Origin: Algoriphagus sp. CAU 1675
Lineage (GTDB): Bacteria > Bacteroidota > Bacteroidia > Cytophagales > Cyclobacteriaceae
Direction of reading: 5' to 3'
NCBI RefSeq assembly: GCF_029222925.1
Contig: NZ_JARHUI010000004.1
Location: 1 to 64,000, forward strand
DNA length: 64,000 nucleotides
The translations under genes were made by a program, and so were the position numbers. This document shows positions 13,745-25,864 of this stretch, piece by piece (within the stretch, counting starts at the first letter, position 1; every line of letters starts with the position of its first letter). Below the pieces are notes generated by a model. The model was not told the DNA's origin. It did no database searches and worked only from the letters and a program-made list of their open reading frames with translations.

Positions 13745-13878
13745 TATTTAAAGTTTAATGTTAAAGATGTTAAAAACGTTAAACGTTAAAGATGTTAAGT
13801 GTTAAGAGCGCAAAGATTATAACTATAAACATTAATATAATTTTTAACTATTAACGCTTAACATTTAACGATTAACTC
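13745..13878. repeat. GTTAA-rich inverted repeat element
   Basis: The left half repeats GTTAAA/GTTAAG words in close succession (ATGTTAAAGATGTTAAA and similar). The right half holds their reverse complement (TTAACGCTTAACATTTAACG). The whole can fold into a long imperfect hairpin. Related elements occur at 15045-15240, 15658-15910 and 25801-25856. It contains no gene. Confidence 0.7.
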
Positions 13879-15003
13879 TTACACTTTACCTTCTGTTTCC
13901 TTCCATTGCTCTTTTACTCCCTTTAAAAACTCAGCACCAAAAACCGAACCTAAGCCTAGGATAAATCCCAAAATGGTGAAAATAACCAGAATCAGAGGGC
14001 GTTTGGGAGCTGATTTTTCTGTGGGAATAGTAACAGGCTGAATCACTGAAAAGATGGGAGTGTCTTTGGAGACCTGCAGCTTCGCCTGTTCCAATTGCTT
14101 CGCCAATTCGGTGTAAATGCTAAAAGCAAAATTGTACTCAGCCTCCAGTCTTTGTAATTCATTGTTTACAGATGCTGAAACGATATTTTGGTTTCTATCC
14201 CTAAAATTAGCTAAGCGGGACTGAATCTTTTCAAACTCTGTTTTTTTCTCCTCAAACTGAATCTCGGTATACTTCAATTGTTCCCGGGCATTTTGGATTT
14301 TATAAGCTATGACCTCCTTTTGGAGCAAAGTCTCCGCATATTTAGCCATTTGGGCTGCCATAATAGGGTCAGGCATTACAAAGGAAATAGATACAAAGCC
14401 TTCTTTATCATTGGGAGTAACTGCCAGCTGATTGTCCAAAATTTTAAACAATTCAAATTCCTCCTGACTCACACTGAGTAATTCTCCTCCTTCACTAGGC
14501 AGGAATGAACCTTCATCTCCTCCTTTGATCGCTTTTATGATTTTTCCGGGTAAACCAACCGTATACTCCTTAAACAAAGCTAAAACCCCAGGTGAATAAA
14601 TTTCGGTGAAGTATTGTCGATAACTTACTTTTTCCCCGGATCCAGGCAAAGAAATTTCTGCCTCTAATAAGGCCTTTTTAAAAGGAACTGAGCCCACAAA
14701 TTTGGGATACAAGGCCGGAGGTATTTCAGAGCCACCAGAAATCCCTCCCAAATTGATCCCAGCCAATGATGCCAAACCACTTAAGCTACCTCCCGCTTTT
14801 CCGGATTCAGCAGTTTGTGGAATAAAGGCGGAGGAGGCGGTAAACTCTTTTGGAGAAAGGATAGCCACGAACAAACCCAAAACCATAAAAATCAAGGTTA
14901 TGGAGATTACCTTTTTTCGATTATTCCAAACAGTTTTTGCCAGGGCAAGAAGGTCGATTTCGTCTTCGTCCGGTTCTTGTTTATATTGATTCGTTTCTGT
15001 CAT
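13879..15003 (-). CDS. Wzz/GumC-like chain-length determinant protein
   Basis: This 374-residue inner-membrane protein has a short acidic cytoplasmic N-terminus, a first membrane helix (about 34-52, ISITLIFMVLGLFVAIL), a large periplasmic region with coiled coil (about 215-310) and a second helix near 335-355 preceded by the proline-rich SAPKRPL. This is the Wzz layout that sets polysaccharide chain length. No tyrosine kinase domain is attached, and none is seen in the window. It is flanked on both sides by GTTAA repeats. Confidence 0.88.
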   Translation of the reverse strand: MTETNQYKQEPDEDEIDLLALAKTVWNNRKKVISITLIFMVLGLFVAILSPKEFTASSAFIPQTAESGKAGGSLSGLASLAGINLGGISGGSEIPPALYPKFVGSVPFKKALLEAEISLPGSGEKVSYRQYFTEIYSPGVLALFKEYTVGLPGKIIKAIKGGDEGSFLPSEGGELLSVSQEEFELFKILDNQLAVTPNDKEGFVSISFVMPDPIMAAQMAKYAETLLQKEVIAYKIQNAREQLKYTEIQFEEKKTEFEKIQSRLANFRDRNQNIVSASVNNELQRLEAEYNFAFSIYTELAKQLEQAKLQVSKDTPIFSVIQPVTIPTEKSAPKRPLILVIFTILGFILGLGSVFGAEFLKGVKEQWKETEGKV

Positions 15004-15044: not shown

Positions 15045-15240
15045 GTGCTCAACGTTAAAAATGTTAAGCGTTAAATATGTTAAACGTTAAAAATGTTAAG
15101 TGTTAAAATCATAAAATGTTATTGGGATAAAGTAGATTAATATTACTGGGCTTAAAAATTTTGATGTAGAAAGCCAAAGACCCAAGTTTTAACGATTTAA
15201 CAATTAACTATTAACATTAAAGGGCCTACATTTAATCGAT
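15045..15240. repeat. GTTAA-rich inverted repeat element
   Basis: The left arm (about 15048-15112) has six GTTAAA/GTTAAG words. The right arm (about 15187-15235) carries the inverse (TTTAACGATTTAACAATTAA). It lies between the chain-length gene and the four-helix-bundle gene and can fold into a long imperfect stem. It contains no gene. Confidence 0.65.
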
Positions 15241-15276: not shown

Positions 15277-15657
15277 TTACTTATAACCTTTTCCTCCACT
15301 GTTTTTTAGGGTTTGAATCAAACCTTGGATTTTATATTTGAGACTTTCCGTTTTTTTTAATACCTCTAAATGTTCTTCTAGAGATATAAATCCAGCATCA
15401 TGAGCACGATAAGATTGTGATCTTGTCTCTGCTGATGAAGCCTTAGCAACATATAAAAACTGTATGAATTCCTTATTTCCATCTCTTTCAAACCCTTCAG
15501 CTATATTATCCATTACAGAACCCGAAGAGGAATTTATTTGACTACAAAACCGAAAATCTTTTGAAAATTCAGGATTCCTTGTCAATCTTCTAACTAAAAC
15601 GCACAAGTCCCTCGCTATTTGCCAAACTTCAAGTTCTTCAAAGTTTTTGATGGTCAT
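15277..15657 (-). CDS. Four-helix-bundle protein (23S rRNA intervening-sequence type)
   Basis: This 126-residue protein matches the four-helix-bundle family first met in the intervening sequences of some 23S rRNA genes: FEELEVWQIARDLCVLVRRL at the start, QINSSSGSVMDNIAEGFER in the middle and FLYVAKASSAETRSQSYRAH after it. Members are scattered through Bacteroidota genomes. The molecular function is unknown, and the acidic/basic bundle suggests protein or RNA binding. It sits alone inside the capsule locus with GTTAA repeats on both sides, so it may be a guest rather than a capsule gene. Confidence 0.85.
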   Translation of the reverse strand: MTIKNFEELEVWQIARDLCVLVRRLTRNPEFSKDFRFCSQINSSSGSVMDNIAEGFERDGNKEFIQFLYVAKASSAETRSQSYRAHDAGFISLEEHLEVLKKTESLKYKIQGLIQTLKNSGGKGYK

Positions 15658-15910
15658 AGGGGTTAAATGTTAAGCGTTAAAAATGTTAAAGTCGTTTAAT
15701 GTGGAAGGTTTTAAAGATTTGATTCAAATTTTCAAACCAAGTTTATAAAAATTAACCCAAAACTAAAAAAGCACCTACGTTTAACGATTTAACAATTTCC
15801 GAATCAAGCACTGCCCCTTCCTTATCCTTGCTTAACGGTTAAACTTTAACCAATTAAATCCTTTACCTAAATCTACGGCTTAACAATTAACGTTTAACTT
15901 TTAACGATCA
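15658..15910. repeat. GTTAA-rich inverted repeats between export and four-helix genes
   Basis: A left arm right after the four-helix gene start (15660-15695, TTAAATGTTAAGCGTTAAA) is matched by inverse copies at about 15778-15800, 15830-15865 and 15885-15910 (TTAACAATTAACGTTTAAC). No gene lies in this 257-bp stretch. Confidence 0.6.
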
Positions 15911-15914
15911 TGCC

Positions 15915-18503
15915 TTATTGAATTATCCTATCCACCAAAATACCTAAGGTAGCCAAACTCGATGCGATGCCTATCCAACTTTGGGCACTCATCCCTTCCC
16001 TTTCAGGTTTGGTAGGCACAATGATTTCTGCCCCAGGTTCGATTCCGGGATAAAAATTGAAGAACAAAAACTTCTTGGTTCTGCTTACATCCCCATTGGC
16101 ATAAACCACATAGCTTCCTCCCTTTCTGGATTTATCCGTAAAGCCACCAGCTTGGGAAATGTAGGATTTGAAACCAGTACCATTTTTATATCGGGTTGAG
16201 GTAGGATACAAAACCTCTCCTCTCATCCTGACGGTTTGCAATTGTTTTGGAATGCTGAGTACATCCCCTTCTCTTAAAATCAAATCCTGAGGTCCATGCG
16301 GATTAGCCAAAATTGCCTGCAGATCAATCCCGATCAGTTCTGTGTCTCTCATTTCAAATTCCTCAACTTCACCCTCACCCAAATTTTCAATGGAAGCCTT
16401 TCTCAGTTCACTGGATTGCAAATTTTCCCGGGAACTTTCCTCCCCTCTTTGGGAAATTTTTTGATCAATTCTATTGAGTAATACTTTCTCCGATTCAGTC
16501 TGATTTAAACTGTCTCTGCTGATATTGGATTTTACACCCCTGAGGTTTTCAGCCTTCACTTCATATTCTGAAGGGCTTTTGTAAAACTCATTTCTTCGAA
16601 TTAGGGTAGCTCCTTTGACATAGGCATAGGAAGTCAAGCCTCCTGCCCTTTTCAATAGATCTGAAATGCGTTCATCAGCATGAGCTATAGCAAATTGTCC
16701 TGGATAAAACGCTTCACCCTCTACACTTACCAATTTTTCATCCTGAAATCCGGGACTTCTTCTCACCATCACATGGTCAAATGGCTGCAGAGGATCATTC
16801 GCCTTTATTCCAGAAACCTTCAAATCCCTATCTATATCCAAAACGATGATTTCAGCGAGCTTTCCGGAAACATCATCTTTTATTCTTCTGGCAATTTCAA
16901 TTCTGGATGAAGTTGCAGACTCCTTAAATCCACCTGCTCTCATTACCAAATCAGCCACCGTCATGTTGTCCCCAAAGGAAAAGGAACCTGGCTTATTGAC
17001 TTCTCCGGAGATCTTTATAAAGTATTCTTCACGCAACTCATAAATACTTGGAATATTCAACACATCCTCTTTTTGCAATAAAATATCCTCAGCCTCTCCA
17101 TTGACTACTGCCCGAATATCCACAGGAAGAATCTCCAATGAAAAATCAGCTTTGGTTCTGTAGAGAGTTGCTCTGTTCAAAAATGCATCTTCCCTCAAGC
17201 CTTCTGCCTTGGCAATTAATTCTTTAACACCCATTCCCTCCTCTAACTCAAAGGTCCCTGGTCTTTCCAAAGCTCCGGTAACCTGCACCCGGTTTGCAAA
17301 ACGGCTTTGGATTTTACCGACTCTGATAACATCCCCATCCTGTGGATTAAAAGAAGGAAAATTGCCTGCTTCCACATCTTCAATCTTCATTTCCTTTCCG
17401 GTTTTCCTACTAACCGAAAGTCTATCCTTGTAGGCTATACTGGAAAATCCTCCTGCAAAAAGAAGTAAATCCTCCAAGGTCTCCCCCGACTTAATTTCAA
17501 AAAGTCCTTCCCTTCTTACCGCTCCAAGGAGCTCAACTCTGGTTCTAACTGGAGGAACGATCATAACATCGTTGTCTCTCAGGGTAATCAAATTTCCAGA
17601 TTCCCCTTTCGTCAGAAACTCATATACGTCCAACTCGGTAAGCAATTTATTATCCCTGTAAATCTGTATATGCCGGAAGGAACCATTCTCACTGGGTCCA
17701 CCTGCTGCAAACAAGGCGTTGAAAGGTGAAGCGAATGAAGGAAGGGTATATGTACCTGGCTTAGTCAACTCTCCAACCATGGAAATGGAAACGGTTCTGA
17801 TATTCCCCAATCTCAATTCCATAAAGGTGTTGGGATTACTTCCCTGAAGGCCTGAATAAATTCTACTCAAGGCGGACCGAACTCTTCCAGTCGCTGCCCC
17901 TACTGTGGCACCCCCAACTTTGATTGGTCCCACATTAGGAACCAAAATAGTTCCTTCTGGACTTACTGTCAGATCGTAAGATTGTTGGGAAGCTCCATAT
18001 ACATCGATCAGCAACTGATCACCTCCTCCCAAAGTATAGCTCTGAGGAGTTGGGATGTTCAAACTTGGGTTGAATGTCAGTTCCCTGTTATGAAAAAGTT
18101 TAAAACCAAAAATCTTCTTCTGAGTAGGTGTCAAATCAAAATAGGGATCTGACTTTCTGATTTCTTCAAATGGATCTCCATCTTGGTTTGGCAAACCTAC
18201 AACCTGTCTCATTCCAGTAGATTCCTTGGATTCACCTGAACTCTTCATAGAACTGGCTCCACTTCTAAGCGCCATAATTCGCTGTCTTAGTTTTGCTGCT
18301 TCTCCAGCAGGCAAGCCTCTTTCCAGTGCCAAGGCTTCTAATTGCTGCTCATTCAAACCAGAGGACTCAGCTCTTTTCAGAAGTTGTTCGATCTGTGCAT
18401 CAGACAAGTTATCAACTTTCAAATTCTGAATATCCGACAGAGACTGTGCCTGTACCACTATTTGAGCAGTAAAAAGAATTAAGAGGAACAAAAGTTTTTT
18501 CAT
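15915..18503 (-). CDS. SLBB-domain polysaccharide export outer-membrane protein
   Basis: This large Wza-like export protein (862 residues from the ATG at 18503) has a signal peptide (MKKLLFLLILFTAQ..), a charged helical stretch, a polysaccharide-export domain near 135-225 (SYTLGGGDQLLIDVYG, then SPEGTILVPNVGPI), and about six or seven SLBB repeats, each with a grossly similar V.GEV..PG.....  pattern. One C-terminal membrane helix (SWIGIASSLATLGILVDRII) ends it. It should form the outer-membrane channel. An upstream ATG at 18527 would add eight residues before the signal peptide and is less likely. It is much longer than E. coli Wza, as is usual in Bacteroidota. Confidence 0.92.
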   Translation of the reverse strand: MKKLLFLLILFTAQIVVQAQSLSDIQNLKVDNLSDAQIEQLLKRAESSGLNEQQLEALALERGLPAGEAAKLRQRIMALRSGASSMKSSGESKESTGMRQVVGLPNQDGDPFEEIRKSDPYFDLTPTQKKIFGFKLFHNRELTFNPSLNIPTPQSYTLGGGDQLLIDVYGASQQSYDLTVSPEGTILVPNVGPIKVGGATVGAATGRVRSALSRIYSGLQGSNPNTFMELRLGNIRTVSISMVGELTKPGTYTLPSFASPFNALFAAGGPSENGSFRHIQIYRDNKLLTELDVYEFLTKGESGNLITLRDNDVMIVPPVRTRVELLGAVRREGLFEIKSGETLEDLLLFAGGFSSIAYKDRLSVSRKTGKEMKIEDVEAGNFPSFNPQDGDVIRVGKIQSRFANRVQVTGALERPGTFELEEGMGVKELIAKAEGLREDAFLNRATLYRTKADFSLEILPVDIRAVVNGEAEDILLQKEDVLNIPSIYELREEYFIKISGEVNKPGSFSFGDNMTVADLVMRAGGFKESATSSRIEIARRIKDDVSGKLAEIIVLDIDRDLKVSGIKANDPLQPFDHVMVRRSPGFQDEKLVSVEGEAFYPGQFAIAHADERISDLLKRAGGLTSYAYVKGATLIRRNEFYKSPSEYEVKAENLRGVKSNISRDSLNQTESEKVLLNRIDQKISQRGEESSRENLQSSELRKASIENLGEGEVEEFEMRDTELIGIDLQAILANPHGPQDLILREGDVLSIPKQLQTVRMRGEVLYPTSTRYKNGTGFKSYISQAGGFTDKSRKGGSYVVYANGDVSRTKKFLFFNFYPGIEPGAEIIVPTKPEREGMSAQSWIGIASSLATLGILVDRIIQ

Positions 18504-18545
18504 GAAGAGAATGAAGTTTAATCGCAAAATTGGATTAGTATTTTT

Positions 18546-18728
18546 AACCGCGAATTGCGCTGATTACGCTAATTTTATTCAATTTGAGCTCGCAGACCTC
18601 GCAATTACACTAAGACTTTAAAATTTTTATTCGGTGAATCTGTAAGTTCTAAGAGAATAATTTTAACCACGAATTACACAAATTTTTTAATGAATTTTGG
18701 CTCGCATAGCTCGCAATTACACAAAGTG
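18546..18728. repeat. Left flank repeats of the GxxExxY gene
   Basis: Two related copies lie in tandem: AACCGCGAATTGCGCTGATT.. at 18546 and AACCACGAATTACACAAATT at 18665, each ending in a CTCGCAATTACAC block. Their inverse occurs on the other side of the GxxExxY gene at 19188-19226. They are also just upstream of the export gene and may affect its promoter. Confidence 0.6.
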
Positions 18729-19112
18729 TCAACTATCACTTTTAGGATCTAGAATTATTCGCTTAAATTCAAGTGACTTTGGACTGAAGTTTAAAAGTAG
18801 ACCTAGGGGTTTGTTTGTAGCCTTAAGGTAGTTGATTACTTGAGCATAATGTTCATCGAGAATCATGGAACAACTTTTTAGCTCTACTATAATATCACCA
18901 TGACATACAAAGTCGGCGATAAAGAATTTTGTCAAGGTATTGCCTTTGAAAATTATCGGTAATTTAACTTCTTTCTCAAACGGTATATTTTGATCTGCTA
19001 ATTCAATACCAAAAGCCTCCTGGTATACACTTTCCAAGAAACCTCCTCCAAGTTCTTTATGCACATTCATCGCTGCCCCAACAATTTCGTAAGTCTCCTT
19101 CTTAAAAATCAT
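18729..19112 (-). CDS. GxxExxY protein (PD-(D/E)XK nuclease-like)
   Basis: This 127-residue protein carries the family signature GGGFLESVYQEAFGIEL near residues 22-38. A predicted nuclease core follows: FFIADFVCHGDIIVELKSC gives D...ELK, the arrangement of the PD-(D/E)XK fold. GxxExxY proteins are widespread single genes of unknown role, often in repeated intergenic DNA. Here inverted repeats lie on both sides, between the capsule regulator and the export gene. Activity is inferred from the motif only. Confidence 0.87.
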   Translation of the reverse strand: MIFKKETYEIVGAAMNVHKELGGGFLESVYQEAFGIELADQNIPFEKEVKLPIIFKGNTLTKFFIADFVCHGDIIVELKSCSMILDEHYAQVINYLKATNKPLGLLLNFSPKSLEFKRIILDPKSDS

Positions 19113-19187
19113 TTAAGATTCTCTCAAATTAATCCTAGAATGATTTTTTCTATTCATGTTCAACGCTAACTAAATTTTATTAGTGAT

Positions 19188-19226
19188 AATTCGCGCAATT
19201 CGTGGTTTTTACCAATTCGTGGTTAC
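19188..19226. repeat. Right flank inverse repeat of the GxxExxY gene
   Basis: AATTCGCGCAATTCGTGGTT at 19188, followed by AATTCGTGGT at 19214, is the reverse complement of the left-flank units at 18546 and 18665. The GxxExxY gene is therefore enclosed by inverted repeats about 0.5-0.65 kb apart. Confidence 0.6.
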
Positions 19227-19309
19227 AGCTTCGCCCTTTCAGTCACATTTCTGTGCTTAGCGGCTTAAATTTACCAATGAAATCAAGTTCTCCTTTACAG
19301 GAAAAATCT

Positions 19310-19816
19310 TTATTTCTCAAACAATATCAAAGCCTCCTGATCGGTAATTTCTTCCCGAATCTCAAAGCTTACTTTTCTTTGAATGGACTCCTTTATGCGT
19401 TCACTCAAGTGAAGCAAATATTCCCCATCCAAGTCCTCACCACAGATTTCAACACAAATCTCTCCAGAGTCCAATCCTCTAGCATAATCTCCTACCAAGG
19501 CCACCTGAGTCACGTTCCCCATTCTTTCAAGAACTGTGCTGAGTAGCTTGTCAAAACCCAAATATTTCCTGATCAAATCCTGAAGATTGGAAAAAAGCGG
19601 ATGATTAATATTTGCTTGGTAATCGATTTTGTTTTTATCGTTGATTTTGACCAAAAGACCTGCATCCGAAAGATTATTCAGTTCTTTTCGGATAGCATTG
19701 GTTGATTCCCCGAATTCTTCAGCCAACCCACGAAGATGACCCTGATTTTTAGGGTTACTAAAAAACTTTACCAGTAGCCGGAGTCTTGTCTTAGAGGTGA
19801 TTAAAGAATTCAGCAT
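19310..19816 (-). CDS. Winged-helix regulator with degenerate nucleotidyltransferase domain
   Basis: This 168-residue protein has an N-terminal winged helix (about 1-65: ITSKTRLRLLVKFFSNPKNQ, then LAEEFGESTNAIRKELNNL). The C-terminal domain resembles small MNT-type nucleotidyltransferases (VALVGDYARGLDSGEICVEI near 105-125). The canonical G-S and D-x-D residues appear changed (GD, and EICVE instead of a DxD), so catalysis is doubtful. Similar proteins stand at the head of polysaccharide loci in Bacteroidota. Its place upstream of the export gene suggests control of the locus (inference). Confidence 0.75.
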   Translation of the reverse strand: MLNSLITSKTRLRLLVKFFSNPKNQGHLRGLAEEFGESTNAIRKELNNLSDAGLLVKINDKNKIDYQANINHPLFSNLQDLIRKYLGFDKLLSTVLERMGNVTQVALVGDYARGLDSGEICVEICGEDLDGEYLLHLSERIKESIQRKVSFEIREEITDQEALILFEK

Positions 19817-19990
19817 AAAAATCGCAAATCAAGCGAGTCACAAAAGTACTCGTCATAGTTTTTTTACAAAAGTATTTTGAGACAATTTTTTAAGGGAAAT
19901 TATAAGGTGTTGATTTTGAGTTGTTTTTTTGAAAATATTCGGAGTTCCTTGTTTATCTGGTTAACTGATAAAGGATCTAAGGAGAGTCAA

Positions 19991-20363
19991 AAGCTCATGG
20001 CTTTCGTCACTCTGCGAGGAGGCGGTAAGCCGACGCGGCAGTCTTTTAGGTAGGTTGTGAGTTGTAGGTTATTGGTTATAGGTTGATCATCCGAGCTTAC
20101 TACTCAATGGTATTATCGGTTAATTGGTTAACTGTTTAACTGGTTAATTGTTCAGGGGAAACGGTGATTGGATAAAAGGACTCCAAAGGAGTCGAACTGT
20201 GAATAACCCAAGGTGAAACCTTGGGTCACAAAATTGAAGTTATTTCCAACGCTGGCGCAGGGTTTGGGTTTGGAAATGGGTTGAATTGCCAGCTAGACAA
20301 AGACCACCTTTCGGATTGAAAATCCTACGATATATAGTTCGACATTGCAAATGTCGAACAGCT
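19991..20363. repeat. Hairpin-rich dispersed repeat, copy B (right of capsule locus)
   Basis: This is a direct copy of 205-570. It keeps all the short hairpins, with base changes that preserve pairing: CAAGGT-GAA-ACCTTG here versus TAGGGT-GAA-ACCCTA in copy A. The 10-bp stem GTTCGACATT/AATGTCGAAC is identical. Another triloop hairpin (GGGAT-TGC-ATCCC) lies beyond it near 20452. The rest of the gene-free stretch 19817-20593 shows nothing recognisable beyond AT-rich flanks. Confidence 0.8.
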
Positions 20364-20593
20364 GGATTTACTGATTATGATCGTAGGTTATGAGTTTAAA
20401 ATTGAGCGTTTGGATGGCATACGGGATTGGAAAGCATACGATTAAAGCTTGGGATTGCATCCCGATCCAGATAATCCTTTAAATTTTGAAATGGTAAAGC
20501 GTTACATGGTACACCTTTCCTTTTTTCTTTCGTTTAATTTGAGGAATTCGTGGTTCTCTTTTTCTTTATCCAATTACTTCTTTAATTAGACCT

Positions 20594-21103
20594 ATGAAAA
20601 ATATGCTAACCGCATTTTTAATTTTTATCACGCTATCCGGAGCATTTGCCCAGTCAAGTGATTTTTTGCTTTTAAAAAAAGGTGTCAACTCCAAATCCCA
20701 AATTAGATATTATGCAGGCGAGCAAATCACCTACAAAAGTGCCAAATTGGGCTATTTCGTTACGGATGTGATCAAGGAATTTGATCAAAATTACATCTAT
20801 CTGAGTGAAAATATCCTTTCCCCAAATGACATTTTGGAGATTGATATTCGAAACAAGGATCCCAGAAACAGTACACTGAAAAATTTTAATTCCTTGTTTC
20901 TGGGAGCGGGAATCCTGCTTTTTACTGTAGAATCTGTTAATTCAATCTATCAACGGGATGAATTTTCAATCAACAAAGGGGTTGGTTTGACTTCTGCCAT
21001 CTTAACTGGTTTGGGAATTGGAATGCTACCGCTTCGATACAAGACGTTTCGAAACCAAGGAAGAAACAGACTTCAGATTATCCTGATGCGGATGGATGAG
21101 TGA
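20594..21103 (+). CDS. Exported hypothetical protein
   Basis: Not recognised. This 169-residue protein has a clear signal peptide (MKNMLTAFLIFITLSGAFAQ). A polar middle follows, and then two moderately hydrophobic segments (near 98-113, FLGAGILLFTVESVN, and 132-148, LTSAILTGLGIGMLPL) that may be membrane helices. It stands alone between the hairpin repeat and prfB. No motif suggests a function. Confidence 0.6.
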   Translation: MKNMLTAFLIFITLSGAFAQSSDFLLLKKGVNSKSQIRYYAGEQITYKSAKLGYFVTDVIKEFDQNYIYLSENILSPNDILEIDIRNKDPRNSTLKNFNSLFLGAGILLFTVESVNSIYQRDEFSINKGVGLTSAILTGLGIGMLPLRYKTFRNQGRNRLQIILMRMDE

Positions 21104-21358
21104 TTTTTTGAGTTCAAACCATTTGTTTGAATCAAAAGATCGTAGGTTATAAGGTGTGGGTTGAGTATCGTTCTTCCTAAATATAGCGTTTACCAATTGA
21201 CTAACTACTTAATTGGTTGATCGATTAGGGGGAGTTCTCTTACCCATTCTCCTTTTGCCTTTCATCTTTATTCAATCGTTCTTAGGAATAGTAAATTCGC
21301 TTTAGCAAAAGCCATTTATTTTTCAGACTTTTGCAGCTTCATTTTCAATTTAAACATC

Positions 21359-22460
21359 ATGACTTCGGAACAACAGAAAGACTTGAAAGCCCGCACCTCG
21401 GCTTTAAGGAGGTATCTTTGACTACGATCGGAAGAAAGCAGAAATAGAAGATCTAGAGGCCGTTTCGGCCCAGCCTGACTTTTGGAACAATCCTGAAGAG
21501 GCTGAAAAAACAATGAAACAAATCCAGGTAAGAAAGGGATGGACCAGTTCCTTCGAAAATCTGGATAAAATTATCCAGGACTTAGAGGTACTTTATGAGT
21601 TTTATTCCGCTGATGAAGTCAGCGAGGATGAAATCAAGGCTGAATACCTAAAAGCCAAAGCCGCAGTTGAGGAACTGGAACTCAAAAAGATGCTCTCATC
21701 AGAAGAGGATCAATTGAACGCCGTCCTTGAAATCAATCCCGGGGCAGGAGGAACAGAAAGTAACGACTGGGCCTCAATTCTCATGAGAATGTACATCATG
21801 TGGGGCGAGAAAAACGGATACAAAGTCCGGGAAGTAGATGTTCAGCCAGGAGAAGTCGCCGGAATCAAATCTGCCACATTGGAATTTGAAGGCCCGTTGG
21901 CTTATGGTTTTTTGAAATCTGAAACCGGTGTTCACCGTTTGGTAAGGATTTCTCCTTTTGATTCAGGAGGAAGAAGACATACTTCCTTTGCCTCTGTTTA
22001 TGCCTATCCGGAAGTGGACGATTCCATTGAAATTGAAATCAACCCTGCGGATGTAGAAATGCATACTTCCCGATCAGGAGGTGCAGGTGGTCAGAATGTC
22101 AACAAGGTTGAAACCAAAGTTCAGCTAACCCACAAACCAACCGGTATTGTGGTGGTTTGCCAAGTGGAGCGTTCTCAGCTTGCCAACCGGGAAAAAGCCA
22201 TGCAAATGCTGAAGTCCCGTTTGTACCAAATGGAGTTGGAAAAAAGGAATGCGGAAATTGCCAAAATTGAATCTTCCAAACTGCGAGTAGATTTTGGTTC
22301 CCAGATAAGAAACTATGTACTGCATCCATACAAACTTGTAAAGGACAACAGAACAGGTTATGAAACATCTGATACCCAACACGTTTTGGATGGAGGATTA
22401 AATGAATTTATGAAAGCTTACCTACTCGCCCAAAGCGAGGAAGAAGCTAATAAAGAATAA
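21359..22460 (+). CDS. prfB: Peptide chain release factor 2, programmed +1 frameshift
   Basis: RF2 ends translation at UGA and UAA. The gene starts with ATG at 21359 and reads 20 codons to an in-frame TGA at 21419-21421. The stop is preceded by AGG AGG TAT CTT TGA C, the classic frameshift site with an internal Shine-Dalgarno-like AGGAGG. A +1 shift at CTT leads into GAC TAC GAT and the main frame, giving 366 residues in all. The anticodon-like SPF ([12 protein letters not shown]) and the catalytic GGQ ([11 protein letters not shown]) are present. Low RF2 would favour the shift, so the gene controls itself. Confidence 0.97.
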
Positions 22461-22462
22461 AG

Positions 22463-22491
22463 AAAAGGCCGGATATTCATTCGGCCTTTTC
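22463..22491 (+). terminator. Intrinsic terminator of prfB
   Basis: AAAAGGCCG and CGGCCTTTT form a 9-bp stem around a 10-base loop, starting two bases after the prfB stop and ending in T residues. Confidence 0.8.
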
Positions 22492-22545
22492 TAATTGTAT
22501 TTGGTATGAAGTGCGCCTTTATTTTCTAAATCCGAATTGTCATTT

Positions 22546-23715
22546 ATGAGAATACTTCCTTCCTTTTTTACGCTCAATTTCTTCCTACTCAGTTTGAGTT
22601 CCTTTTTATTTTTCTCCTCATTCAACATGATCATTCCCGAACTCCCCTCCTATTTGACTTCCCTCGGAGGTGAAGATTACAAAGGATTGATTATTTCCTT
22701 ATTCACGCTTTCAGCCGGACTTTCAAGACCCTTCAGCGGAAAATTGGCTGATAAAATCGGAAGAATCCCCGTGATGATTGTAGGCACCACGGTATGCTTT
22801 ATAGTAGGCTTATTATACCCCTTGATGAGTTTTGTTGGAGGATTTTTGTTTTTGCGATTTGTCCATGGCTTTTCTGCCGGATTCAAACCAACCGGCACTT
22901 CCGCTTATGTTGCGGATATTGTTCCTATTCAGCAGCGTGGAGAAGCCATGGGAATCCAGTCCTTCTTTGGCTCCATGGGAATGGCCGCCGGACCGGCAAT
23001 TGGAGGGTGGATTGCTACCCAATGGTCAATCAACACCCTGTTCTATTTCTCTGCATTTACAGCCATCTTTTCGATTCTGATCTTGGTTAGGTTGAAAGAA
23101 ACCTTGGTAGAAAAAGAGCCCATTTCATGGAGCCTATTCAAATTAAAAAAAGATGAAATTATTGAAAAAAGGGTGTTGGTACCGTCCATGGTATTGTTCC
23201 TACTGGTATTTTCCTTTGGGGTGATTTTGACCATTATCCCAGATTTTTCCACTCATTTAGGCATTGAAAACAAGGGATTATTCTTTGCAGTATTTACCCT
23301 TTCCTCACTTGGAATCAGGTTGGTTGCAGGAAAAACATCTGATAAATACGGCCGTGTTCCGGTCATGCGGGTTGCAAGTCTAACCATGGTCTTAGCCTTG
23401 ATAACCATCGCGTTTTCCGAAAGTAAGGCAGGCTTAATGGGAGCGGGTGTATTATTCGGCTGTGCTGTGGGAATGTACAGCCCAACCACAACGGCCTGGG
23501 TCGTGGATTTATCCCTCGATAAATTCCGCGGAAGAGCCTTAGCCACTATGTATATATTCTTAGAGGCCGGAATTGGAATTGGGGCCATTGTTTCCGGCTT
23601 TCTTTATGCAAACAAAGCTGAAAATTTTAGGCTGGCGTTTTTGACTAGCGGGGCAATTGCATTTTCCGGATTTTTGATCCTGATTTTCTTGAGAAAGAAA
23701 AAGTACCAAGTCTAA
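22546..23715 (+). CDS. MFS transporter
   Basis: This 389-residue protein has about 12 membrane helices. The major-facilitator loop GKLADKIGRIPVMIVG lies between helices 2 and 3, and a matching GKTSDKYGRVPVMRV in the second half. The helix-5 region has GSMGMAAGPAIGGWIA, typical of drug-efflux-type (DHA1) members. The substrate is unknown. The ATG at 22546 is chosen over a TTG nine bases earlier. It follows the prfB terminator, so it is transcribed separately. Confidence 0.88.
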   Translation: MRILPSFFTLNFFLLSLSSFLFFSSFNMIIPELPSYLTSLGGEDYKGLIISLFTLSAGLSRPFSGKLADKIGRIPVMIVGTTVCFIVGLLYPLMSFVGGFLFLRFVHGFSAGFKPTGTSAYVADIVPIQQRGEAMGIQSFFGSMGMAAGPAIGGWIATQWSINTLFYFSAFTAIFSILILVRLKETLVEKEPISWSLFKLKKDEIIEKRVLVPSMVLFLLVFSFGVILTIIPDFSTHLGIENKGLFFAVFTLSSLGIRLVAGKTSDKYGRVPVMRVASLTMVLALITIAFSESKAGLMGAGVLFGCAVGMYSPTTTAWVVDLSLDKFRGRALATMYIFLEAGIGIGAIVSGFLYANKAENFRLAFLTSGAIAFSGFLILIFLRKKKYQV

Positions 23716-23769
23716 ATTCAATTTGGTATAAGGGGAAATTTTGTCCCAAACAGGATACTTCTATTTCAC

Positions 23770-24960
23770 TACGTTCGCAAGGGCGCCGTCCAGGCATTGT
23801 CTTTTACGTCATTGCGAGGGGCATTTCTATAACACCATTGAGTCAAGTATTCAATCTGTCCCGAAGCAATCTTGAGGTTCCAAAAATTGTAATGCAGATT
23901 ACTTCACTTCGTTCGCAATGACGTCCAGGCCTTGACTTTTACGTCATTGTTAGGGACATTTCTATAACACCAATTGGGTCAAATTTTCAATCTGTCCCGA
24001 AGCAATCTTGAGGTTCCAAAAATTGTAATTCAGATTGCTTCACTCCGTTCGCAATGACGGCCAGACATTGTCTTTAACGGCATTGCGAGGGACGTTTCAA
24101 AAACACCGATTGGGTCAAATTTTCAATCTGTCCCGAAGCAATCTTGAGGTTCCAAAAATTGTAATTCAGATTGCTTCACTCCGTTCGCAATGACGGCCAG
24201 ACATTGTCTTTAACGTCATTGCGAGGGACGTTTTAAAAACACCGATTGAATCAAGTATTCAATCGGTCCCAAAGCAATCTAAAGGTTTCAAAAATTTTAA
24301 TTTAGGTTACTTCACTCCGTTCGCAATGACGTCCAGGAATTGTCTTTTACGTTATTGCGAGGGATATTTCTATGGCACCATTGAGTTAAGTATTCAATCT
24401 GTCCCGAAGCAATCTTAAGGTTCCAAAAATTGTAATTCAGATTGCTTCACTCCGTTCGCAATGACGGCAAAGCATTGTCTTTTACGGCTTTGCGAGGGAC
24501 GTTTCAAAAACACCGATTGAATCAAGTATTCAATTCGTCCCGAAGCAATCTTAAGGCACCAAAAATTGTAATACAGATTGCTTCACTCCGTTCGCAATGA
24601 CGGCCAGGCATTGTATTTTACGTCATTGCGAGGGGCATTTCTATGACACCATTGAGTCAAGTATTCAATCTGTCCCGAAGCAATCCTGAGGTTTCAAAAA
24701 TTGTAATGCAGATTGCTTCACTCCGTTCGCAATGACGGCCAAGCATTGTCTTTTACGTCATTGCTAGGGATATTTCTATGACACCAATTCATTCAAGAAT
24801 TCAATTGGTCCCGAAGCAATCTTAAGGTTCCAAAAAATGTATTTCAGATTGCTTCACTCCGTTCGCAATGACGGCCAAGCATTGTCTTTTACGGCATTGC
24901 GAGGGACGTTTCAAAAACACCGATTGAATCAAGTATTCAATTCGTCCCGAAGCAATCTTT
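23770..24960. repeat. Tandem array of nine ~135.5-bp palindromic units
   Basis: The phrase tCATTGCGAGGG or a variant recurs at 23809, 23944, 24080, 24216, 24352, 24487, 24623, 24758 and 24894, a period of 135 or 136 bases. Each unit holds nested inverted repeats: CATTGCGA and GAAGCAATCT on one side, AGATTGCTTC and TCGCAATG on the other. Each unit can therefore fold into a large stem. Units differ by scattered changes. No ORF of note lies in the gene-free stretch 23716-25084. Confidence 0.93.
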
Positions 24961-25084
24961 AGCTTCTTCGAATTCTCAAAAAATTTGCTTCTTTAGATCC
25001 CCTGAATCGCAAATGTCAAAAATTCTTCGGTAAAAATTCACAATTGACTAAATTCAACTGGATTGGTTTTGAGAAGAGAATAAC

Positions 25085-25384
25085 ATGAAAAAAGGTGGAG
25101 CTATTTACATCATGACAAATTGGAAAAAGTCAGTCTTATATACCGGAGTAACAAATGATCTCATCAGAAGAGTTTATGAGCATAGATCCAAGTCTAACCC
25201 TAATTCATTTACAGCCAGATATAATTTATCTAAACTTGTATATTTCGAGCCTTTTCATACCATTGAAGAAGCTTTAGCCAGAGAAAAACAAATTAAAGCT
25301 GGAAGTAGAAATAAGAAGGAAGCCTTAATTAACAGTTTGAACCCAAATTGGAGAGACCTTTGGGAAGACATTCAAAAGTGGTAA
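25085..25384 (+). CDS. GIY-YIG single-domain nuclease inside the repeat array
   Basis: This 99-residue protein is a stand-alone GIY-YIG domain: AIYIMTNWKKSVLYTGVTND gives the YI..LYTG core, IRRVYEHRS supplies the conserved arginine and YEHR, and EALAREKQIKAGSR holds the glutamate helix. Such UPF0213-type proteins are predicted DNA nucleases, most without known targets. The gene lies between nine repeat units on the left and two on the right, alone and in its own frame. A role in spreading or maintaining the repeat is inference. Confidence 0.9.
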   Translation: MKKGGAIYIMTNWKKSVLYTGVTNDLIRRVYEHRSKSNPNSFTARYNLSKLVYFEPFHTIEEALAREKQIKAGSRNKKEALINSLNPNWRDLWEDIQKW

Positions 25385-25424
25385 ATAATGGGTTTCAGCC
25401 ATGATTTTAAACATCCTATATTTC

Positions 25425-25739
25425 CTAAAACAGATTGCTTCACTCCCTACGCAATGACGTCCAGGAATTGTCTTTTACGTTATTGCGAGGGATATTTCTA
25501 TGGCACCATTGAGTTAAGTATTCAATCTGTCCCGAAGCAATCTTAAGGTTCCAAAAATTGTAATTCAGATTGCTTCACTCCGTTCGCAATGACGGCAAAG
25601 CATTGTCTTTTACGGCTTTGCGAGGGACGTTTCAAAAACACCGATTGAATCAAGTATTCAATTCGTCCCGAAGCAATCTTAATGCACCAAAAATTGTAAT
25701 ACAGATTGCTTCACTCCGTTCGCAATGACGGCCAGGCAA
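25425..25739. repeat. Continuation of palindromic array (two units), near-identical to 24323-24610
   Basis: The 288 bases at 25451-25738 match 24323-24610 with one difference seen (AATGCACC versus AAGGCACC). They carry unit starts at 25480 and 25615. The first part (25425-25450) is a diverged half-unit with a CCCTAC variant of the usual CCGTTC. Confidence 0.92.
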
Positions 25740-25800
25740 AAAAGCTTCCTTCGATTACGTGAATCGCAAAGACGGCAAACCTTTGTCCTTTTCCCTTTTG

Positions 25801-25856
25801 AAGGTTAATTGGTTAACAGGTTAATCGTTAAAGCTGTTAAGCGTTAAGTGGTTGGA
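25801..25856. repeat. GTTAA-type repeat fragment
   Basis: A short run of GGTTAATTGGTTAACAGG and CGTTAAAGCTGTTAAGCG words, of the kind found around 13.8-15.9 kb, lies directly downstream of the M24 peptidase gene. Confidence 0.5.
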
Positions 25857-25864
25857 TCCAATTC

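Follow-up and report, generated by a model that had tools for sequence, protein, structure and literature searches.

Three small genes in a 64,000-nt stretch of the Algoriphagus sp. CAU 1675 genome (contig NZ_JARHUI010000004.1, positions 1 to 64,000; hereafter 'the window') each lie between repeats of a distinct class, and the families to which they belong tend to keep this arrangement across many bacteria. The genes encode a four-helix-bundle (4HB) protein of the 23S rRNA intervening-sequence protein (IVP) family, a GxxExxY protein resembling PD-(D/E)XK nucleases, and a small GIY-YIG nuclease. On balance, we think it probable that each is the sole gene of a repeat-bounded cassette and that its protein works on the structure formed by its own repeats. 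GIY-YIG is the clearest case: a conserved nuclease is accompanied on at least one side by tagged hairpins at 59 of 81 loci, occupies many unrelated sites, and has repeats that change with the protein. These hairpins resemble the CGTC super-family of repetitive extragenic palindromes (REPs), and we regard the nuclease as a good candidate for the enzyme that those REPs seem to lack.

A preliminary description of this DNA had named the three genes, with their coordinates and families, and had proposed that each has flanking repeats of its own type; Pfam and NCBIfam profile matches confirm the former and a repeat search the latter. The features are listed here (repeats, and the GIY-YIG insert as a whole, carry no strand).

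15052..15121: GTTAA word array downstream of the 4HB gene, words ATGTTAAG/CGTTAAAA (repeat search)
15188..15221: TTTAACGATTTAACAATTAAC words, inverted relative to 15665-15690 (repeat search)
15277..15657, minus strand: four-helix-bundle (23S rRNA IVP) gene, 126 aa (TIGR02436, E 1.6e-28; PF05635, E 5.6e-29)
15663..15690: GTTAA word array immediately upstream of the 4HB gene (repeat search)
15780..15908: more TTTAACGATTT / TTAACGT words, lying between the 4HB cassette and the SLBB gene (repeat search)
18546..18726: downstream arm of the GxxExxY gene, with AACCGCGAATTGCGC, AACCACGAATTACACAAATT and two CTCGCAATTACAC words (repeat pairs)
18729..19112, minus strand: GxxExxY gene (PD-(D/E)XK-like), 127 aa (TIGR04256, E 4.6e-42; PF13366, E 1.7e-39)
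19187..19224: upstream arm of the GxxExxY gene, inverted, AATTCGCGCAATTCGTGGTT ... CCAATTCGTGGTT (repeat pairs)
23716..25864: entire GIY-YIG insert, between the MFS and M24 genes, missing in all 12 relatives where both neighbours are seen together
23765..24966: 136-bp unit repeated 8.8 times, with GTCATTGCGAG / GCAATGACG CGTC-type hairpins, upstream of the GIY-YIG gene (repeat search)
25085..25384, plus strand: GIY-YIG nuclease gene, 99 aa (PF01541, E 7.8e-14; family-conserved Y8, Y19, G21, R29, H33, E67, N86)
25426..25732: the same type of 136-bp unit repeated 2.3 times in the same direction, downstream of the GIY-YIG gene (repeat search)

The inverted pair types enclosing the window GxxExxY gene are the AACCACGAATT and CTCGCAATTACAC words, the AACCACGAATT-type words lying at 18546-18566 and 18665-18684 on one side and, inverted, at 19187-19207 on the other. 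GTTAA arrays occur in the window without a 4HB gene as well (323-355, 13758-13798, 13851-13881, 20118-20152 and 25802-25848), so the pairing seen in the window proves nothing by itself, and it is the survey of the families that carries the argument. Arrays of a further, GTAGGTT-type word, likewise without a gene, lie at 262-290, 20050-20085 and 21142-21169.

All three families are scattered. Among 38 relatives, GxxExxY occurs in 25, 4HB in 33 (1-15 copies each) and relatives of the window GIY-YIG in 23; of 148 genomes from the phylum of the window, 114 have 4HB and 86 have relatives of the window GIY-YIG. The source genome (G000, 3.81 Mb, with the window on contig C12) has seven 4HB, four GxxExxY (one decayed) and three GIY-YIG matches (one of a tRNA-linked kind), and some copies of the surveyed families contain internal stops. 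Our locus sets consist of the top-scoring matches, up to a maximum for each search, and are no random sample. They comprise 110 GxxExxY loci (29 of the 30 loci of relatives, the fragment L025 being dropped, the best 80 of 572 confirmed, and the window), 61 4HB loci (60 fetched loci and the window) and 94 GIY-YIG loci (window included, with 12 of 33 plasmid records, and without L083, which has a stop and a contig end, and the weakest matches, L321-L326). Twelve tRNA-adjacent GIY-YIG loci (nine by ARAGORN; L074, L088 and L090 by eye) were set apart, leaving 82.

As a strict control for the flanks we used 194 genes with intergenic DNA on both sides, scoring similarity as z over dinucleotide shuffles; usable loci with two gaps numbered 62 of 110 for GxxExxY, 32 of 61 for 4HB and 56 of 82 for GIY-YIG. 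Inverted flank repeats reach z>3 at 39/62 GxxExxY, 20/32 4HB and 29/56 GIY-YIG loci versus 9/194 controls, and direct repeats do so at 38/56 GIY-YIG loci; in flanking repeats the families thus exceed the control genes by a wide margin, the outcome for which the preliminary description had suggested looking. Measured against the 95th percentile of the controls, inverted similarity is exceeded at 48/62 GxxExxY (p 1.2e-21), 25/32 4HB (p 6.2e-16) and 36/56 GIY-YIG loci (p 1.3e-20), and direct similarity at 40/56 GIY-YIG, 17/62 GxxExxY and 3/32 4HB loci. The 4HB sets hold orthologous sites, so that these flank tests over-count independence there (49 loci amount to 20 independent sites). GxxExxY loci from many phyla (76 usable of the best 80) have a median inverted score of 21, compared with 12 in 254 other open reading frames (ORFs). 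When upstream and downstream flanks are taken from different loci, similarity is lower than for the true pairs (GxxExxY, p 8e-25; 4HB inverted, p 3.9e-11; GIY-YIG direct, p 1.2e-16), from which it follows that the repeats belong to each locus itself.

The repeated sequence itself is not what the loci share. No match to the AACCACGAATT word was found in 29 of the 30 GxxExxY loci of relatives; the association is therefore not with one sequence, and the arrangement is what is common. In the flanks that we inspected, short repeats bound many of the copies, and the repeated word varies by locus while the layout is kept: GxxExxY genes are flanked by words such as ACCACAGAGGACACAGAG, CGCAAAGGCGCAAAG, CACGAAAGCACGAAAG and ACAGGATTTACAGGAT, with their reverse complements on the opposite side, 4HB genes by words such as AAGTACCAAGTACAAAGTAC, AAGTATCAAGTATC and GAAGACCGAAGACGG, and GIY-YIG genes by palindromes that start with GTCATT and end with AATCT or AATCC. 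At one GxxExxY locus (L227) the inverted arm similarity seems by eye to continue beyond the words and to reach the last part of the upstream, carA-like gene, and the arm looks as if copied from the host flank. Very short palindromes (such as CCCGATAGATCGGG or CCGCAGTATTGCGG) lie insertion-like inside words or REP units at L021, L023, L062 and L063.

Each family has its own class of repeat. Self-matching of the flanks gives an excess for 4HB at lag 7, by 10 standard errors, and at lags 14 and 21, which corresponds to heptamer words, and at lags 8-11 for GxxExxY (8-11-nt words); GIY-YIG flanks lack a comparable word period and have a small excess at lag 5. According to excerpts of Di Nocera 2013 (PMC3733652), REPs fall into GTAG and CGTC super-families, the CGTC units having a CGTC or TGTC tag, a stem that starts with AT and is 8-9 bp long, and a CCA-like tail; the published unit (stem 8-9 bp, loop 4-5) was our standard of comparison. 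We searched within 300 nt of each gene for hairpins with an obligatory GTCAT tag, an exact stem of 5 bp and a loop of at most 40, in the 81 of 82 GIY-YIG and 108 of 110 GxxExxY loci that passed a flank-length filter. Such hairpins occur on both sides of 47/81 GIY-YIG genes, compared with 4/456 other ORFs whose flanks were intergenic or not (p 1.4e-40), 3/216 controls with gaps of at least 40 nt and 2/114 with gaps of at least 100 nt; on at least one side, the 59/81 GIY-YIG loci compare with 12/114 of the latter controls. Both-side hairpins were found at 0/108 GxxExxY, 0/61 4HB and 0/12 tRNA-linked GIY-YIG loci. The single type of cassette that had been suggested for all three genes is accordingly not borne out by either the lags or the hairpin counts.

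Loci fetched after the idea of a CGTC link had been noted provide an independent test of the hairpin association, and among these both-side hairpins occur at 11/23 loci from other phyla and 8/12 from plasmid records. The tail, which lies outside the search pattern, is of the form C[CT]N after 178/201 hairpins; it is CTG in the 136-bp units of the window and a strict CCA at several alpha-proteobacterial and Neisseria loci. Units with stems of 8 bp or longer adjoin GIY-YIG genes in Sinorhizobium, Azospirillum, Rhizobium, Shinella, Neorhizobium and Neisseria, and CGTC-type units such as CGTCATCCTCGGGCTTGACCCGAGGATCCA and CGTCATTCCCGCGCAGGCGGGAATCTA stand beside the gene in Sinorhizobium meliloti, Azospirillum lipoferum, Rhizobium, Shinella, Neorhizobium and Neisseria gonorrhoeae; at the S. 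meliloti locus (L336) a tagged hairpin was detected upstream only. Several hairpin-negative loci (among them L069, L086 and L087) have TGACA-tagged words that the pattern missed.

The tRNA-linked GIY-YIG loci form a second subfamily, mostly of 80-96 aa (L073-L075, L077-L082, L088-L090), with a tRNA gene less than 400 bp away in 9/12 according to ARAGORN; one member, L089, is in the source genome (G000:C11:349570-349770). By eye, in many of these loci a copy of the 3' part of the tRNA stands across the gene from the tRNA, and a palindrome often takes the place of its anticodon arm (CCGCCGCGGCGG, CCCGATTAATCGGG).

The repeats of GIY-YIG follow protein clade rather than genome. Within the phylum of the window, the window gene, L062, L063, L064, L276 and L277 have GTCATTGC words and form one clade in the tree (support only 0.046), while L069, L070, L086 and L087, from four genomes, have CTTCGAC-type words and form a clade with support of 0.94. 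One genome (G020) has a GTCATTGC-type and a CTTCGAC-type locus, and another (G016) combines a GTCATTTCGACC-type locus, L068, with L087, which is of the CTTCGAC type. In Mantel tests on pairs that come from different genomes and share less than 60% identity, protein identity correlates with flank similarity (r 0.20 for GIY-YIG, 0.19 for GxxExxY and 0.23 for 4HB; 0/500 permutations each). Shared location explains part of this correlation for 4HB and GxxExxY. It can hardly do so for GIY-YIG, as 64 loci with two near neighbours (tRNA-linked ones included) represent 62 independent sites; the corresponding figures are 49 sites among 68 loci for GxxExxY and 20 among 49 for 4HB.

The gaps that hold the cassettes in the window are empty in relatives. 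The MFS-M24 gap has neither GIY-YIG nor the 136-bp array at all 12 loci with both neighbours (L118-L129, out of 22 genomes searched), GxxExxY is missing from the HTH-SLBB gap in 6/6 informative cases (L092-L096, L113), and the wzz-SLBB gap lacks 4HB in the one informative case (L092); these relatives are other species, so the direction of change is not proven. On Shinella plasmids, one and the same gap contains GIY-YIG accompanied by four matches to a single CGTC REP (L343, L351), neither the gene nor a match to that REP (L347, L349), only a short gap (L348), or another gene (L350). Cassette-less orthologous gaps, which the preliminary description had proposed to seek in sister strains, were thus found in other species for each of the three window genes, and in related plasmids for a plasmid GIY-YIG. 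We rejected a linked unit of three genes, as they lie in three separate gaps that are each empty in relatives. (Names of neighbouring genes, namely odhB-lpd, acyltransferase, carA-carB, nuoD, wzz and SLBB, were assigned by eye from translations.) One cassette-less MFS-M24 gap (L119) has a two-armed word hairpin without a gene (CCGCAGAT...ATCTGCGG), and one HTH-SLBB gap (L113) has GTTAA words without a cassette gene; both look like derivatives in the style of miniature inverted-repeat transposable elements.

Orientation differs between the families. Counted per independent site, GxxExxY and 4HB genes flanked by two neighbours on one strand tend to point the same way as these (26/31 and 14/17 sites) and GIY-YIG shows no such bias (21/35); divergent gaps account for 4/49, 1/20 and 5/62 sites, respectively. 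The same operon gaps take different types of cassette in distant bacteria. The suf operon hosts 4HB in the source genome (L049, by eye) and in Riemerella (L354, next to the annotated sufB) and GIY-YIG in Azospirillum (L338, between the annotated sufB and sufC), and an odhB-lpd-like gap contains 4HB in relatives (L032 and orthologues) and GIY-YIG at L330 (by eye). Searches with transposase models (Pfam and NCBIfam, E 0.001) matched none of the three genes, Rfam had no match in the window, and PADLOC gave only two weak matches to defence systems (E 0.0018 and 0.0067).

Predicted pairing of the arms across the gene is raised in the median. Between two 150-nt flanks, the median number of expected pairs is 36.5 for GxxExxY (41.6 for the window copy), 29.5 for 4HB (p 4.6e-14 versus controls) and 18.9 for GIY-YIG, compared with 11.5 for 194 control ORFs. 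The proteins of all three families are, to judge from their substitution rates, under purifying selection: median dN/dS is 0.16 (15 unsaturated of 45 pairs) and 0.13 (7/10) at two 4HB sites, 0.05 (one pair) and 0.09 (six pairs) for GxxExxY, and 0.06 (3/15 pairs) for GIY-YIG. In GIY-YIG, Y8 is conserved in 73/74 sequences, Y19 in 76/78, G21 in 78/78, R29 in 80/80, E67 in 79/80 and N86 in 71/79, and we take these six to be the catalytic positions. In 24 GxxExxY sequences D67 and E77 are invariant and K79 is present in at least 90%, L030 lacking the K; these are presumably the catalytic residues (D...ExK) of a PD-(D/E)XK nuclease.

How such cassettes might work can be sketched from these features. 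The GIY-YIG gene is set in arrays or dimers of CGTC-tagged REP palindromes; the nuclease may recognise these hairpins and cut beside the GTC tag, and would thereby spread both the gene itself and gene-less REPs, so that it would serve CGTC REPs as RAYT, an unrelated enzyme, serves GTAG REPs. In GxxExxY and 4HB cassettes, two complementary arms enclose the gene, and the transcript could fold so that the arms form a stem and the gene its loop, as in rRNA intervening sequences (IVSs); GxxExxY would then act on the stem as a PD-(D/E)XK nuclease and the 4HB protein as a nucleic-acid binder. Since the constant feature of these two families is the two-armed layout and not the word, recognition of a structure is the simplest guess. 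Recognition, cleavage and copying of hairpins are candidate functions that we infer. What we observe is the association, its class specificity, the cassette-less gaps, the purifying selection, the GIY-YIG residues, and the repeats that follow the GIY-YIG clade. The shared life style put forward in the preliminary description survives as one small gene bounded by repeats, on the strength of the flank tests and empty gaps, and its single cassette type does not; likewise, its 'minimal mobile cassette' stands as a repeat-bounded one-gene unit, whose mobility is conjectural and, for 4HB, apparently rare.

Several observations weigh against cassettes of this kind. Although published CGTC stems measure 8-9 bp, stems of 8 bp on both sides occur at only 12/81 GIY-YIG loci (0/456 controls), the exact stems of Bacteroidota hairpins, including those of the window, are mostly shorter than 8-9 bp, and by the search used 22/81 GIY-YIG loci have no GTCAT hairpin within 300 nt. 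The TCATTGCGAGGNAC word is also found at places other than the listed GIY-YIG genes, in 6/32 matches in G020, 1/5 in G009 and all four in G016, G018 and G027. The Mantel test ignores species relatedness, and co-evolution of the two arms at orthologous 4HB sites is not significant (odhB-lpd-like, n=11, p 0.24; acyltransferase-like, n=6, p 0.22). Arm pairing exceeds the 95th percentile of the controls at only 43/101 GxxExxY, 18/59 4HB and 8/42 GIY-YIG loci, and the window 4HB copy has only 6.9 expected pairs and flanks in which direct and inverted words are mixed. At 4/5 tested shared sites the 4HB copies make up a clade of their own or one that takes in a single further copy; 4HB copies are thus mostly inherited in place, as old residents whose cassette moves rarely or is kept for use. 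The window proteins match only 0, 0 and 2 of 50,697 phage records and 8, 12 and 33 of 72,556 plasmid records (the 33 being GIY-YIG), some of the plasmid records being chromosome-sized, and with so few matches in either collection transmission by phages or plasmids found no support.

Could the flanks simply reflect repeat-rich intergenic DNA, so that a similar picture would be seen around any gene whose intergenic flanks are long? GTTAA and other word arrays do occur in several gene-less gaps of the window, but the excess of inverted repeats over the 194 strict controls, the agreement of the mismatched-locus controls with a real association, and a hairpin excess that holds both against gaps of at least 100 nt and outside the window's phylum make this most improbable, and the strict flank controls and gap-restricted hairpin controls reject the notion that all intergenic DNA is alike. 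It is also conceivable, if distinctly unlikely, that the repeats are the mobile or recombinogenic part and the genes mere passengers, which land in or are captured by arrays where insertion is harmless. Gene-less arrays fit this (the GTTAA arrays of the window, the L119 hairpin, the TCATTGCGAGGNAC word away from GIY-YIG genes), as does the dispersal of CGTC REPs in families through alpha-proteobacteria given in excerpts of PMC3733652. However, passengers should include any small gene in any repeat, and yet GTCAT hairpins flank none of the 108 GxxExxY and 61 4HB loci on both sides; moreover, repeat words track the protein clade, the TCATTGCGAGGNAC word is concentrated at the GIY-YIG locus (1/1 matches in G000, 4/5 in G009, 26/32 in G020), and the Shinella gaps that lack the gene (L347, L349) lack matches to its REP.

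A function in regulation or RNA processing without mobility deserves more serious attention, though we still regard it as unlikely. Here the arms would form an RNase III-cut stem or a terminator or attenuator, and the protein would serve the host by acting on that RNA. The co-directional placement of 4HB and GxxExxY speaks for it, as do arms that can pair across these genes, proteins that are under apparent purifying selection, and the Coxiella rRNA IVS, which in excerpts of PMC4990558 contains an S23p ORF within terminal inverted repeats forming a 28-bp stem that RNase III cuts. Yet it leaves unexplained why relatives have cassette-less gaps, why the cassettes occupy so many independent sites (49 for GxxExxY), and why the arm sequence changes from locus to locus with the layout kept, and it is at odds with GIY-YIG, given the lack of orientation bias. 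We prefer the repeat-bounded cassette whose protein works on its own repeats.

A broader proposal is more tentative, and we rate it somewhat below an even prospect: the three families may exemplify a general class of minimal mobile elements, in which one gene of about 100-130 codons sits between hairpin-forming repeats, which evolved at least three times (GIY-YIG, PD-(D/E)XK, four-helix), which inherits layout and word class instead of a fixed sequence, and in which GIY-YIG is the missing partner of CGTC REPs from Neisseria to Bacteroidota. If so, the origin of a common bacterial repeat, whose hosts include human pathogens and nitrogen-fixing symbionts (excerpts of PMC3733652), could be tested with one GIY-YIG protein of 99 residues and one hairpin, GxxExxY and 'four helix bundle protein', now annotated by motif only, would gain a role, and rRNA intervening sequences would take their place in a wider class.

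The 4HB and GIY-YIG cassettes resemble known systems in part. The window 4HB protein matches the sequence of PDB 2gsc (E 9e-8), and a window protein weakly matches the PHROG family of Avd (E 2.8e-4), the protein of diversity-generating retroelements. Like the 23S rRNA IVSs of Coxiella and Leptospira, the 4HB cassette has an S23p/IVP protein, a scattered presence and an ORF that tends to lie within terminal inverted repeats, but it lies between protein genes (in the window, in the gap between a wzz-like and an SLBB gene and not inside a 23S rRNA helix) and its arms are mostly tandem heptamer words. In that respect it resembles the heptamer TAACTGA arrays in intergenic DNA of Bacteroidetes, Cyanobacteria and Beggiatoaceae (MacGregor 2015, PMC4679880), with the difference that here the words are tied to a 4HB gene; a term search of the main text of that paper found mention of neither helix bundle nor S23. 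The GIY-YIG cassettes recall RAYT (TnpA-REP) and the REPtron in having a small single-domain nuclease gene with palindromic REPs of its own type on its flanks, and in having gene-less repeats elsewhere, as with GTAG REPs and REPINs. In RAYT systems, too, repeat type tracks enzyme clade. The enzyme, however, is GIY-YIG (PF01541) and not an HUH (Y1) tyrosine transposase, and the tag is GTC(AT) and not GTAG; GIY-YIG is hence not a member of the RAYT family and can only be said to work like one. Text searches of open-licence PMC papers found none that links GIY-YIG to REPs, dRS3 or palindromic intergenic repeats (for the last, an organelle-intron review was the one match), and only PMC3733652 and PMC8934634 that contain at least two of six family and repeat names; among the papers listed, GIY-YIG and RAYT occur together in one on an Amanita mitogenome and in a mollicute study; the terms GIY, RAYT and transposase are missing from the main text of a 2025 REP survey (PMC12306157). 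CGTC REPs are known from five phyla and include the Neisseria dRS3 and the Rickettsia RPE, a dedicated transposase apparently missing (PMC3733652, in excerpts). The GIY-YIG repeats share with them the CGTC/TGTC tag, the AT-first stem and the CC/CT tail, and differ in that the window units have shorter stems and lie in 136-bp arrays; and whereas those excerpts name no dedicated enzyme, here a GIY-YIG gene adjoins the units.

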